From contig JBMFOH010000014.1 of assembly GCA_049969715.1 (NCBI GenBank), positions 1 to 43,461 of the forward strand: 43,461 bases of DNA, in the 5' to 3' direction. Below, in pieces: positions 29,699 through 32,717 of the stretch. Position numbers and translations under genes: made by a program. Each line of letters starts with the position of its first letter. Positions within the stretch are counted from its first letter, which is position 1. The notes beneath the pieces were generated by a model. It had not been told where the DNA came from. It saw only the letters and a program-made list of their open reading frames with translations, and ran no database searches. Origin of the DNA: JBMFOH01 sp049969715 [NCBI: bacterium] (GTDB lineage: Bacteria > DUMJ01).

Positions 29699-30730
29699 AT
29701 GCTTGCAGCAGTACTAGAAGGAATAAAAAAGATGGTTTTAAAGGAGGTTCCTACTCCAAAGATCAGGAACAATGAAGTTCTAGTAAGGGTAAAGGCGTGT
29801 GGAATATGCCAAACAGATTACTCTGCATACACGGGAAGGAGGACAAATTGGACGCCCCCAATGATACTTGGTCATGAGATCTCAGGGGTGATAGAAAAGG
29901 TAGGGGATGAGGTAGAGAGCTGGAAATCTGGAGATGAGGTAGTATTAAGTCCTGTTATCTCCTGTGGAGAATGTGATTACTGTAGAGTAGGTCTTGGACA
30001 TTACTGTAGGAATGGAAAGGTAATAGGAGGAGAAGGACAGAAGATAGTTTTGCCAGGTGGATTTGCAGAGTATGTAGCAGTTCCTACAAGTGTACTATAT
30101 AAAAAACCTATCAATGCATCATTTGAATCTACTGCACTTTCAGAGCCATTAGCCGGGTCTTATAAGGGAATGATAGAATACTCTAATCTAAGGCTAGGAG
30201 AAGATGTGGTAATTATAGGGGCTGGAGCTATGGGACTTCTCCTCTTAGAATTAGCAGTGGCAGGAGGGGCAGGAAGAATAATAGTAGTAGACATAGTAGA
30301 TTACAGGCTTAAAAAGGCAATAGAACTTGGGGCTACCCATACTATAAACTCTAAGAAAGAGGATGTAAAAAGAAAAGTATACGAGATCATTCCGGATGGG
30401 CCCGATATAGTGTTTGAAGCTGCCGGAGTGTTAGAAGCAGCTCAGATGGCATTTGAACTTACAAGGAGAGGAACAAGGATAAATATGTTTGGAGTTATCA
30501 TCCCAGGATATATACAGGTATCTCCAGCGGAGATACACTTTAATGAGACTAGAGTAGATGCATCGTTCTCAGTAAACCCAAGGGTAATGACAAAGGCTGT
30601 TAGCCTTATAGAAAAGGGCAAGGTAGATCCAGAAAAGATTATAACCCACAGATTCCCATTAAGAGAGATCAATAAGGCATTAGAGGCTATGGAGTCTCCA
30701 GACCGTATAAAGGTGGTGATAAATCCATAA
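29699..30730 (+). CDS. zinc-dependent alcohol dehydrogenase (sorbitol/threonine dehydrogenase type)
   Basis: This 343-residue medium-chain dehydrogenase has catalytic zinc residues in KACGICQTDYSAY (Cys) and GHEISGVI (His-Glu). The structural zinc lobe is C-G-E-C-D-Y-C-x7-C. The Rossmann motif is VIIGAGAMGLL, with VVDIVDYR whose Asp favours NAD. It oxidises a polyol or secondary alcohol; the exact substrate is unknown. SD AGGAGG precedes ATG 29699. Divergent from the leu operon. A hairpin follows its stop by 7 bases. Confidence 0.93.
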   Translation: MLAAVLEGIKKMVLKEVPTPKIRNNEVLVRVKACGICQTDYSAYTGRRTNWTPPMILGHEISGVIEKVGDEVESWKSGDEVVLSPVISCGECDYCRVGLGHYCRNGKVIGGEGQKIVLPGGFAEYVAVPTSVLYKKPINASFESTALSEPLAGSYKGMIEYSNLRLGEDVVIIGAGAMGLLLLELAVAGGAGRIIVVDIVDYRLKKAIELGATHTINSKKEDVKRKVYEIIPDGPDIVFEAAGVLEAAQMAFELTRRGTRINMFGVIIPGYIQVSPAEIHFNETRVDASFSVNPRVMTKAVSLIEKGKVDPEKIITHRFPLREINKALEAMESPDRIKVVINP

Positions 30731-30801
30731 AAAATAAAAGAGCCCCGAGGGGGCTCTTCTAGGGAGGTGGGTTATGAGAGGTTACCTGGTGTTGGTGTCT
30801 T
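30726..30801 (-). ncRNA. candidate small RNA with CCACCTCCC motif
   Basis: On the minus strand a TATAAT (30813-30808) would start a transcript near 30801, ending at the terminator hairpin 30758-30738 with its U-tract, about 75 nt in all. The unpaired middle contains CCCACCTCCC, complementary to Shine-Dalgarno sequences. The -35 (CTCTTA) is weak. No protein is encoded. A plus-strand small ORF uses the same DNA and is an alternative reading. Confidence 0.3.
30738..30758. terminator. GC-rich hairpin, strong U-tract on the minus strand
   Basis: AAGAGCCCC (30738-30746) pairs perfectly with GGGGCTCTT (30750-30758) around a 3-nt loop. Read on the plus strand it is followed by CTAGGG, a poor U-tract. 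Read on the minus strand it is followed by TTTATTTTTTATGG, so it fits best as an intrinsic terminator for a leftward transcript starting between here and pyrB. Confidence 0.7.
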
Positions 30802-30833
30802 TGAACAATTATATTCTAGATGATAATTATTAA
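30774..30833 (+). CDS. possible 19-residue small ORF with perfect ribosome-binding site
   Basis: ATG 30774 is preceded by GGGAGGTGG six bases upstream. It opens 19 codons (MRGYLVLVSLNNYILDDNY) ending TAA at 30831-30833. The peptide is mildly hydrophobic in the middle. It lies after the dehydrogenase terminator-like hairpin and before the pyrB promoter, so it would be read only by read-through. Length alone gives no proof; the good SD is the only evidence. Confidence 0.3.
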   Translation: MRGYLVLVSLNNYILDDNY

Positions 30834-30876
30834 GAGAAAATTAAGATAATATTAATGTTTTGTTAAGATTTCAATT

Positions 30877-30905
30877 TTGACAACCAGAGTATTTTCTGGT
30901 ATCAT
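30877..30905 (+). promoter_or_regulatory. pyrB promoter
   Basis: TTGACA (30877-30882), 17 bp, TATCAT (30900-30905): perfect -35 and 5/6 -10. The start would be near 30912, exactly at the 5' arm of the predicted PyrR hairpin. The spacer holds an inverted repeat ACCAGA/TCTGGT (30883-30888, 30895-30900). Confidence 0.8.
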
Positions 30906-30911
30906 ACCCTT

Positions 30912-30979
30912 AACCTTTAAATCGGTTCGGTGAGGCCGAAAAGGTTTTGCCGGATCGCCTAATATAATGGAGGTGATCC
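30912..30979 (+). promoter_or_regulatory. predicted PyrR-binding hairpin plus SD-sequestering hairpin in the pyrB leader
   Basis: Hairpin 1: AACCTTT (30912-30918) pairs with AAAGGTT (30940-30946), an AAA bulge follows, then TCGG/CCGA (30922-30925, 30936-30939) closes the loop. It contains GGTTCGGTGAGGCC (30924-30937), which fits the PyrR consensus ARUCCNGNGAGGYU with a paired A-U to G-C change and a C-G to U-G wobble. Hairpin 2: GGATCGCCT (30952-30960) pairs with AGGTGATCC (30971-30979) and hides the SD. Alternative: CGGTTCGGTG (30923-30932) can pair with TGCCGGATCG (30948-30957), breaking both hairpins and freeing the SD. Control by UMP-bound PyrR is inferred. Confidence 0.6.
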
Positions 30980-30982
30980 ACA

Positions 30983-31909
30983 TTGGAAATGTTAAGAAGG
31001 AAAGATCTGTTAGATACAGACCTTCTTACAAGAGAGGAGATACTACTTATCATTAACACTGCACTTAAGATAAAAAAAGAAGGAGTAAGATCTCTATCAC
31101 TCTCTGATGAAATTGTATCCCTTCTATTTTTTGAACCTAGCACCCGTACGAGGAATTCATTTGAGATTGCAGCAAAAAGACTAGGAGCCATAGTAGTCTC
31201 TATGGATACCTCAGGAAGCAGTTTGATAAAAGGAGAGTCCGCACTTAATACTGTAAGGACCCTACAGGCTATGGGGGTAAATTATTTTGTGATAAGGCAT
31301 AGAGATTCAGGATTTCCCTATCAGATAGCCCAGAAGGTTCAGGCCTCAATCATAAATGCAGGGGATGGCACTAGAGGACATCCAACCCAAGCACTTTTAG
31401 ATGCCCTTACTATTATAGAATCAAAGGGAAATATAACTGGTAAAAAGATAATAATAGTAGGAGATATAATCCATAGTAGGGTAGCCAGGTCTAATATATG
31501 GCTATTGAAGAAATTGGAAGCCGACATCACCCTGGTAGGTCCACCAGAATTTTTACCAGAAGAATTTGAGTCTTTAGGTCTAAATATTAGCTATTCCCTA
31601 GACGAGGCAATATCTGATGCAGATATAGTTATGGGGCTTAGAATACAGAGAGAAAGGATGGAAAAGATGAGTATCTCGGTAGAAGAATACATAAAGAGGT
31701 ATCAGATAAGTACAGAAAGGCTCTTCAAAGCTAAGGATGATGTAATTGTAATGCACCCTGGTCCAGTAAATGTAGGGATAGAGATGACAGAAGAGGTCCT
31801 CTATTCTGACAGATCATTGGTAGAAAAGCAGGTAACTAATGGGGTATTCATAAGAATGGCTATTCTTAGTTTGTTAAAGGAGATGAGAGCATATGGAAGT
31901 AACTCTTAA
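30983..31909 (+). CDS. pyrB: aspartate carbamoyltransferase catalytic subunit
   Basis: This 308-residue enzyme joins carbamoyl phosphate and aspartate, the first committed step of pyrimidine synthesis. Motifs are FFEPSTRTRNSFE (carbamoyl phosphate), HPTQAL (catalytic His), LRIQRERM (aspartate-binding R-x-Q-x-E/R) and HPGPVN. The start is TTG 30983, nine bases after a full GGAGGTGATCC; the ATG six bases later has poorer spacing. No pyrI or other pyr gene follows. The leader upstream carries a predicted PyrR switch. It overlaps the aldolase gene by 17 bases. Confidence 0.96.
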   Translation: MEMLRRKDLLDTDLLTREEILLIINTALKIKKEGVRSLSLSDEIVSLLFFEPSTRTRNSFEIAAKRLGAIVVSMDTSGSSLIKGESALNTVRTLQAMGVNYFVIRHRDSGFPYQIAQKVQASIINAGDGTRGHPTQALLDALTIIESKGNITGKKIIIVGDIIHSRVARSNIWLLKKLEADITLVGPPEFLPEEFESLGLNISYSLDEAISDADIVMGLRIQRERMEKMSISVEEYIKRYQISTERLFKAKDDVIVMHPGPVNVGIEMTEEVLYSDRSLVEKQVTNGVFIRMAILSLLKEMRAYGSNS

Positions 31910-32717
31910 GGAGCTCTTGCCTAATGCCTATAGGGAACACAAGGCTATAGTGCATTTCAACATTCACACTCTAGAGGATATTGAGGCAATTATAGAGGCA
32001 GGGTATGAGTTAAATCTACCCGTTATAGTAGCCTGTACTCCTAGGGTTTTAAACACACTTGGAGGGAGAAGTATAGTAGGGGTTTATAGGTCTTTAGCAG
32101 ATTACTGTAATACTCCTATAGTATTACATCTAGACCATACTACAGAACTAAAAGATATATGGAAGGCTATAAGTGCTGGATTTACCTCAGTAATGATAGA
32201 CGGCTCGAGGTTACCATACGAAGAGAACGTCAAACTTACATCTACTGTAGTAGAGGTGTCTAAGGCAGCTGGTATCTCTGTAGAAGGAGAGATAGGGGCT
32301 GTTCCAGGAAGAGAGGACGATGCCAAGGAGTTTAAAGGGGCACTAACGGAACCAGAGGTAGCAACCTCATTTGCATTAGATACTGGAATAGATGCGTTAG
32401 CAGTGGCTATAGGAACTGCTCACGGATTCTATAAAGACCCGCCAAGGTTAGACTTTGAAAGACTAGAAAGGATAGATAGAGAGGTGAATATTCCGCTTGT
32501 TCTCCATGGAGGAACAGGGATTCCTATATCGGATATCAAGAAGGCTATATCTCTTGGTATATCTAAGGTGAACATAGGAACAGAACTGTTAGCCCTAGTT
32601 ACCAACACATATAGAGAGGCATCTAAACTTAGTTATGACGTACTTGATATAGTAAATGAGGGAAAGAAGAGACTAAAGGAAAGAGCAAAGGAATTACTAA
32701 TAGAGATAGAGGGATAA
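31893..32717 (+). CDS. class II fructose-bisphosphate/ketose aldolase
   Basis: This 274-residue zinc aldolase of the Fba/GatY/KbaY family has VLHLDHTTELKD (catalytic Asp and zinc His), SVMIDGSRLPYEEN, GISVEGEIGAVPG, AIGTAHG (zinc His) and LHGGTGIP (zinc His). The short length and E-G-E-I-G block fit either fructose- or tagatose-bisphosphate aldolase. ATG 31893 lies inside the pyrB end, with AGGAG about 10 bases before it, so it is translated from the pyrB mRNA. The glycolytic enzyme under a pyrimidine switch is odd. Confidence 0.92.
   Translation: MEVTLKELLPNAYREHKAIVHFNIHTLEDIEAIIEAGYELNLPVIVACTPRVLNTLGGRSIVGVYRSLADYCNTPIVLHLDHTTELKDIWKAISAGFTSVMIDGSRLPYEENVKLTSTVVEVSKAAGISVEGEIGAVPGREDDAKEFKGALTEPEVATSFALDTGIDALAVAIGTAHGFYKDPPRLDFERLERIDREVNIPLVLHGGTGIPISDIKKAISLGISKVNIGTELLALVTNTYREASKLSYDVLDIVNEGKKRLKERAKELLIEIEG

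Follow-up and report, generated by a model that had tools for sequence, protein, structure and literature searches.

The window, as we call the whole 43,461-nt stretch of contig JBMFOH010000014.1 from the bacterium JBMFOH01 sp049969715 analyzed here, carries pyrB, the gene for aspartate carbamoyltransferase, behind a leader that probably forms a translational on/off switch controlled by PyrR; we put the probability of this reading at roughly three in four. Positions 30877-31909 take in a predicted promoter, pyrB, and the 72-nt leader between the two. According to a thermodynamic model and conservation, the Shine-Dalgarno (SD) sequence of pyrB is included in a set of three mutually exclusive helices: a predicted PyrR-binding hairpin, a hairpin that buries the SD, and a longer alternative helix. 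All three are kept in the window and in three relatives. The features are listed below (R1 is a model of the PyrR loop, described in the next section).

30877-30905, + strand: sigma-70-type promoter, TTGACA-17-(TG)TATCAT, from a scan (11/12 matches)
30912-30946, + strand: predicted PyrR-binding hairpin (anti-antisequestor); R1, 44 bits, E = 2e-7; RF00515, 37.7 bits, below gathering score
30923-30957, + strand: alternative anti-sequestor hairpin, arms 30923-30937/30943-30957, loop GAAAA, 15 bp
30952-30979, + strand: SD-sequestering hairpin, arms 30952-30960/30971-30979, 9 bp (8 in the relatives)
30969-30979, + strand: extended SD of pyrB, GGAGGUGAUCC
30983-31909, + strand: pyrB, aspartate carbamoyltransferase, 308 amino acids, TTG start; NF002032, 365 bits, cut-off 263

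In the mechanism that we propose, RNA polymerase would start at about 30911. When uridine monophosphate (UMP) is low, PyrR would be off the RNA, and the emerging 30943-30957 would zip with 30923-30937 into the 15-bp anti-sequestor, which would tie up six left-arm bases of the SD hairpin, leave the SD open, and allow pyrB to be translated. When UMP is high, PyrR-UMP would hold 30912-30946; 30952-30960 would then be free to pair with 30971-30979, and the SD would be buried. The wiring would be that of a Bacillus pyr attenuator with an SD sequestor in place of the terminator.

The predicted PyrR-binding hairpin and pyrR

The hairpin has a lower stem of 7 bp (30912-30918/30940-30946), an AAA bulge (30919-30921), an upper stem of 6 bp (30922-30927/30934-30939), and the hexaloop CGGUGA (30928-30933). 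The predicted features of a PyrR site are present: a CNGNGA hexaloop, the conserved upper stem, a purine bulge, and a CCUUU/AAGG lower stem. The Rfam model RF00515, which spans 115 positions, part of them a terminator half without counterpart in the window leader, matched 30910-31030 (37.7 bits, E = 4.6e-4 over a 201-nt stretch); its gathering score of 54 was not reached, and an Rfam search at the gathering threshold gave no match in the window. In the RF00515 alignment the binding loop had high posterior values, and the terminator half had low ones with many non-pairs.

We compared the window with three related genomes, G001-G003 (leaders L001-L003), which are the whole sample of their phylum; a PyrB search found the three loci at 77-80% identity. 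RF00515 scored the relatives' leaders at 28.8-29.1 bits. R1, a 35-position model of the loop only, was made from 46 sites of other bacteria, with the window's clade excluded. Its match in the window lies at 30912-30946 and scores 44 bits (E = 2e-7 over 77 kb); the pyrB leaders L001-L003 score 30.3 bits (E = 2e-4). The 46 sites covary (67 cells with two-sided changes vs. 16.3 in shuffles) and are paired in 94.9% of cells vs. 83.2% in shuffles, counts made on sites preselected for pairing. The PyrR loop of the window looks genuine and stands upstream of a pyrimidine gene; the match to R1 upholds the fit to a PyrR-binding site that a sequence-only reading of this DNA had claimed.

A pyrR gene was found in all three related genomes (NF003548, 245-250 bits, cut-off 218), and the best sequence matches of the PyrR of G001 were solved PyrR structures. 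The pyrB leader was the sole R1 match at E <= 10 in each of the three genomes, which leaves pyrB as the one PyrR target detected in them. At the positions of T18 and R27 of Bacillus PyrR, which we take to be RNA-contact residues, the PyrR proteins of G001-G003 carry L and H.

Mutually exclusive helices in the leader

The 9-bp hairpin that the sequence-only reading had described as burying the SD was confirmed and covers most of GGAGGUGAUCC. The second pairing of that reading, over 10 positions with four wobbles (30923-30932/30948-30957), also exists, as the outer part of a hairpin of 15 bp rather than 10. This alternative helix draws on most of the upper stem and loop of the PyrR hairpin and on six bases from the SD hairpin's left arm.

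Folding of the nascent RNA favors the anti-sequestor. With the window RNA extended to 30968, the free fold had -21.6 kcal/mol, the fold with the alternative helix forced -21.5, and that with the PyrR loop forced -12.9, so that the anti-sequestor had an advantage of 8.6-8.9 kcal/mol over the PyrR loop; in the relatives the values were about -24 vs. about -13 kcal/mol with the PyrR loop (advantage 8.3-11.4). Forcing the PyrR loop at 37 C lowered SD accessibility from 0.51 to 0.13 in L001 and from 0.57 to 0.19 in L003, and at 70 C from 0.68 to 0.18 in L002. We also shuffled the letters of the 22-nt linker 2000 times and compared the products for SD burial and for the advantage of the alternative fold. 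For the window, SD burial was as good in 176 shuffles, the advantage as large in 2, and both in 1; the corresponding counts for L001 were 25, 1, and 0. An extra helix beside the SD, ACCUUUU/GAAAGGU, appeared in the free fold of L001 at 37 C and of all three relatives at 70 C.

The leader is far better conserved than the silent sites of the gene that it precedes. In the stretch that begins at 30910 and ends with the SD hairpin's left arm, 46/50 positions are identical between the window and L001, and the fourfold sites of pyrB are identical at 29/95 (31%) with L001, 36/93 with L002, and 38/96 with L003. The loop of the SD hairpin differs among leaders, and its eight core pairs are identical in 4/4; the alternative helix is paired in 95% of cells over the four leaders.

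These folds also bear on another reading, in which the SD hairpin acts as a thermosensor or as a fixed brake, and the PyrR loop works via RNA decay or Rho. The free-fold SD does open with temperature in L001 (0.51 to 0.67) and L002 (0.15 to 0.68), but in the window it is flat (0.20, 0.21, and 0.19 at 37, 55, and 70 C), and the left arm that pairs with the SD is also used in the alternative helix that involves the PyrR loop. We consider this explanation very unlikely.

Survey of PyrR sites and their outputs

The RF00515 survey covered 290 genomes listed as relatives of G003, nearly all from other phyla, and matched 98 of them at E <= 0.1 (12 pass the cut-off). We read 93 of the 105 listed matches, leaving out G246 and nine at E 0.08-0.1; the leaders of G002 and G003, also among the 105, were read as L002 and L003. 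With the C-N-G-N-G-A hexaloop in place, 71/93 sites were kept; 22 without the exact pattern were set aside, at least three of which (G288, G122, and G260) look like true variant loops. The 46 sites of R1 came from 67 that pair in register, G001 being excluded deliberately and the rest removed by eye as duplicates or register-shifted. Run over 386 genomes, R1 matched 97 and yielded 33 new sites, of which 32 were read (G188, at a contig edge, excepted).

A terminator before the start codon was called at 54/70 and 21/32 of the sites with a downstream frame, 75/102 together (one of the 71 RF00515-derived sites lacks such a frame, so 70 were scored). Both the terminators and the starts were assigned by a script, which seems to have overlooked terminators at G221, G078, and G350 and may have placed some starts wrongly. 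Given this frequency, and a window loop that shares the anti-antiterminator topology, transcription attenuation of the Bacillus type might be expected before pyrB as well. However, no terminator-like site was found on the + strand in 30700-31100, which, with the poor alignment of the RF00515 terminator half, makes attenuation of pyrB highly improbable.

Of the 27 sites at which no terminator was called, 12 have the loop 11-26 nt before the start codon, a spacing that would be expected for direct ribosome blocking. Two-state folding was applied to 19 leaders (16 of these 27 sites, plus the window, L002, and L003). By our reading of the folds, the window clade and two pyrR leaders, those of G039 and G184, appear to stand out in combining a separate SD sequestor with an alternative fold that depends on PyrR. 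In the PyrR state, SD accessibility fell from 0.40 to 0.17 at the direct-type site of G248, and rose in G111 and G195.

Two loops lie before genes for HD-domain proteins, one in L143 (G187) from 532 and one on the minus strand of L184 (G320) at ~1418-1452. The proteins match the Pfam YfbR-like 5'-deoxynucleotidase (72.8 and 50.7 bits, cut-off 25.9); one loop abuts the start and one has a terminator. PyrR control may thus extend beyond the classical pyr genes to an HD-domain (YfbR-like) gene.

A possibly similar arrangement in a second phylum

The phylum of G039 was sampled by nine genomes, four of which have PyrR matches above 210 bits (one above the curated cut-off of 218); PyrR loops occur in the same four. 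The pyrR leaders of G039, G184, and G387 resemble the window in having a PyrR loop, a long nascent anti-sequestor, and an SD-sequestering hairpin, which in G039 and G184 is GGGGGACCUC...GGAGGUGCUCCC; no terminator was detected in the pyrR leaders of these two. They differ in preceding pyrR rather than pyrB, in sequence, and in that a 5' AGGUCC joins the anti-sequestor. In the three leaders the nascent anti-sequestor was better than the PyrR loop by 8.9-11.6 kcal/mol. With 1000 shuffles each, the advantage was matched in 2, 7, and 1, SD burial alone in 196, 559, and 476, and both properties in 1, 4, and 1. Since SD burial was often matched by shuffles and the accessibility shifts are uneven (next section), the likeness in logic is suggestive. 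We see about even odds that PyrR anti-antisequestor switches have separate origins in two or more little-studied phyla, one before pyrB in the window clade and one before pyrR in that of G039, with an SD hairpin replacing the terminator, and that ACCUUUU also clamps GAAAGGU by the SD in some relatives of the window.

The pyrB leaders of G039, G184, G387, and G388 (L192 from ~2130, L193 and L189 ~1457, and L190 ~555) have another layout. The sequence of their SD region, AAAGGGGUGC, is almost a repeat of AAAGGGUGCC, which forms the 3' arm of the PyrR hairpin's lower stem, so that either copy could serve as partner of the 5' arm. With this layout, PyrR binding might release the SD, the reverse of repression, unless the protein blocks the SD itself; folding of two of these leaders gave no clear switch.

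Points against the switch, and direct repression

Several observations weigh against a PyrR-controlled switch in the window. The evidence for pyrR comes from the genomes of the relatives and not from the window's own. In the PyrR hairpin of all three relatives the upper stem is interrupted by a U.U mismatch, which brings their R1 score down to 30.3 bits; the other 70 CNGNGA loops have a purine at that 3' position of the upper stem. Two-sided covariation among the leaders of the clade, to which the sequence-only reading had looked as a check on all three helices, was absent (0 changes in four leaders). We regard this null result as uninformative rather than contrary, because the helix arms are nearly invariant while the silent sites of pyrB are near-randomized.

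The folding of complete leaders adds further points of this kind. In the full-length window RNA at 37 C the anti-sequestor had -30.0 kcal/mol vs. -31.1 for the SD-hairpin ensemble, and the mean unpaired fraction of the SD went from 0.20 free to 0.13 with the PyrR loop (0.23 to 0.19 when the SD was delimited differently); the L002 values at 37 C were 0.15 and 0.13. In the second phylum the shifts were 0.38 to 0.18 in G039, 0.56 to 0.37 in G184, and 0.41 to 0.36 in G387, and a slightly different fragment of G039 gave 0.18 to 0.16. The folding model thus suggests that the window barely switches at equilibrium. Because the SD hairpin slightly wins there, the switch would have to be kinetic, with the anti-sequestor forming before the SD emerges. 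The shutdown by PyrR-UMP through SD sequestration that the sequence-only reading had put forward is accordingly supported by computation in its outline, with kinetic control as an added requirement.

A small change in SD accessibility at equilibrium is also what repression of the Mycobacterium type would give, in which PyrR on 30912-30946 sterically blocks the ribosome, the SD hairpin only tunes basal translation, and there is no anti-sequestor; the 12 terminator-free survey sites with the loop close to the start codon also speak for it. In the window, however, the hairpin ends at 30946, 22 nt before the SD (30969) and 36 nt before the start codon, so that its stem does not abut the SD. Nor would direct blocking account for a conserved linker whose 15-bp alternative helix is rarely matched by shuffles, or for the accessibility shifts in L001 and L003. 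We judge it unlikely, and prefer the PyrR-controlled SD switch.

Promoter, start codon, and neighboring genes

The promoter was the best of five promoter-like matches in the region, with 11/12 bases: a -35 TTGACA at 30877-30882, a 17-nt spacer with TG, and a -10 TATCAT at 30900-30905. In the leader alignment, L001-L003 show hexamers before pyrB that resemble those of the window, with similar spacing. The promoter position predicts an RNA 5' end at about 30911, in agreement with the prior expectation of a transcript start upstream of 30946. The -35/-10 spacer contains a palindrome, ACCAGA-N6-TCTGGT (30883-30900); we rejected it as a conserved operator, as it is absent from the three relatives.

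The pyrB start at TTG 30983 lines up with the ATG of the three relatives, for which reason ATG 30989 was rejected as the start. The extended SD is presumably complementary to the 3' end of 16S rRNA. No relatives of PyrB were found among viral contigs.

A class II aldolase family gene (31893-32717, PF01116, 281.9 bits) overlaps the 3' end of pyrB by 17 nt. The copies in L002 (6908-7684) and L003 (6908-7681; PF01116, 131.3 bits) are shorter, more diverged, and without the GTAHGFYKDPP stretch of the window, which suggests that catalysis may have been changed or lost in them.

Comparison with known systems

UMP-bound PyrR is described as stabilizing an anti-antiterminator with the consensus ARUCCAGAGAGGYU (PMC7430163), and a study of 255 genomes gives 211 pyrR (RF00515) motifs (PMC3766115). 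The window hairpin resembles the pyr attenuators of Bacillus subtilis (RF00515) in its CNGNGA-type hexaloop and purine bulge, and also in that a PyrR-stabilized hairpin would exclude an alternative helix that would otherwise prevent a downstream hairpin (PMC7430163). Unlike in B. subtilis, the downstream hairpin of the window sequesters the SD and has no U-run, and the output would be translation initiation. The scores obtained here suggest that an Rfam PyrR model with a terminator half scores translational sites low.

The titles and abstract openings that we searched, a weak form of evidence with most subscription journals outside its scope, describe no PyrR anti-sequestor. Within those listings the anti-sequestor wiring is the new part of a system whose sensor and output are both known. 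To that extent the sequence-only reading was right to call it a different design from that of Bacillus; PyrR control of translation had already been reported. Fields and Switzer (2007) are said to have found PyrR-dependent translational repression in the pyr leader of Mycobacterium smegmatis, where PyrR is reported to act on translation without a terminator, as predicted for the window, and was proposed to occlude the ribosome-binding site, in contrast to the separate sequestor and anti-sequestor predicted here.

If the switch is real, a single RNA-binding protein and a single loop would serve three kinds of output, the SD switch joining termination and direct ribosome blocking. Our survey offers a first comparison of how frequent each PyrR output is. 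In its output stage the window leader would resemble the general class of translational riboswitches with an SD sequestor and anti-sequestor; unlike in those, its sensor would be a protein-RNA complex and not an aptamer.
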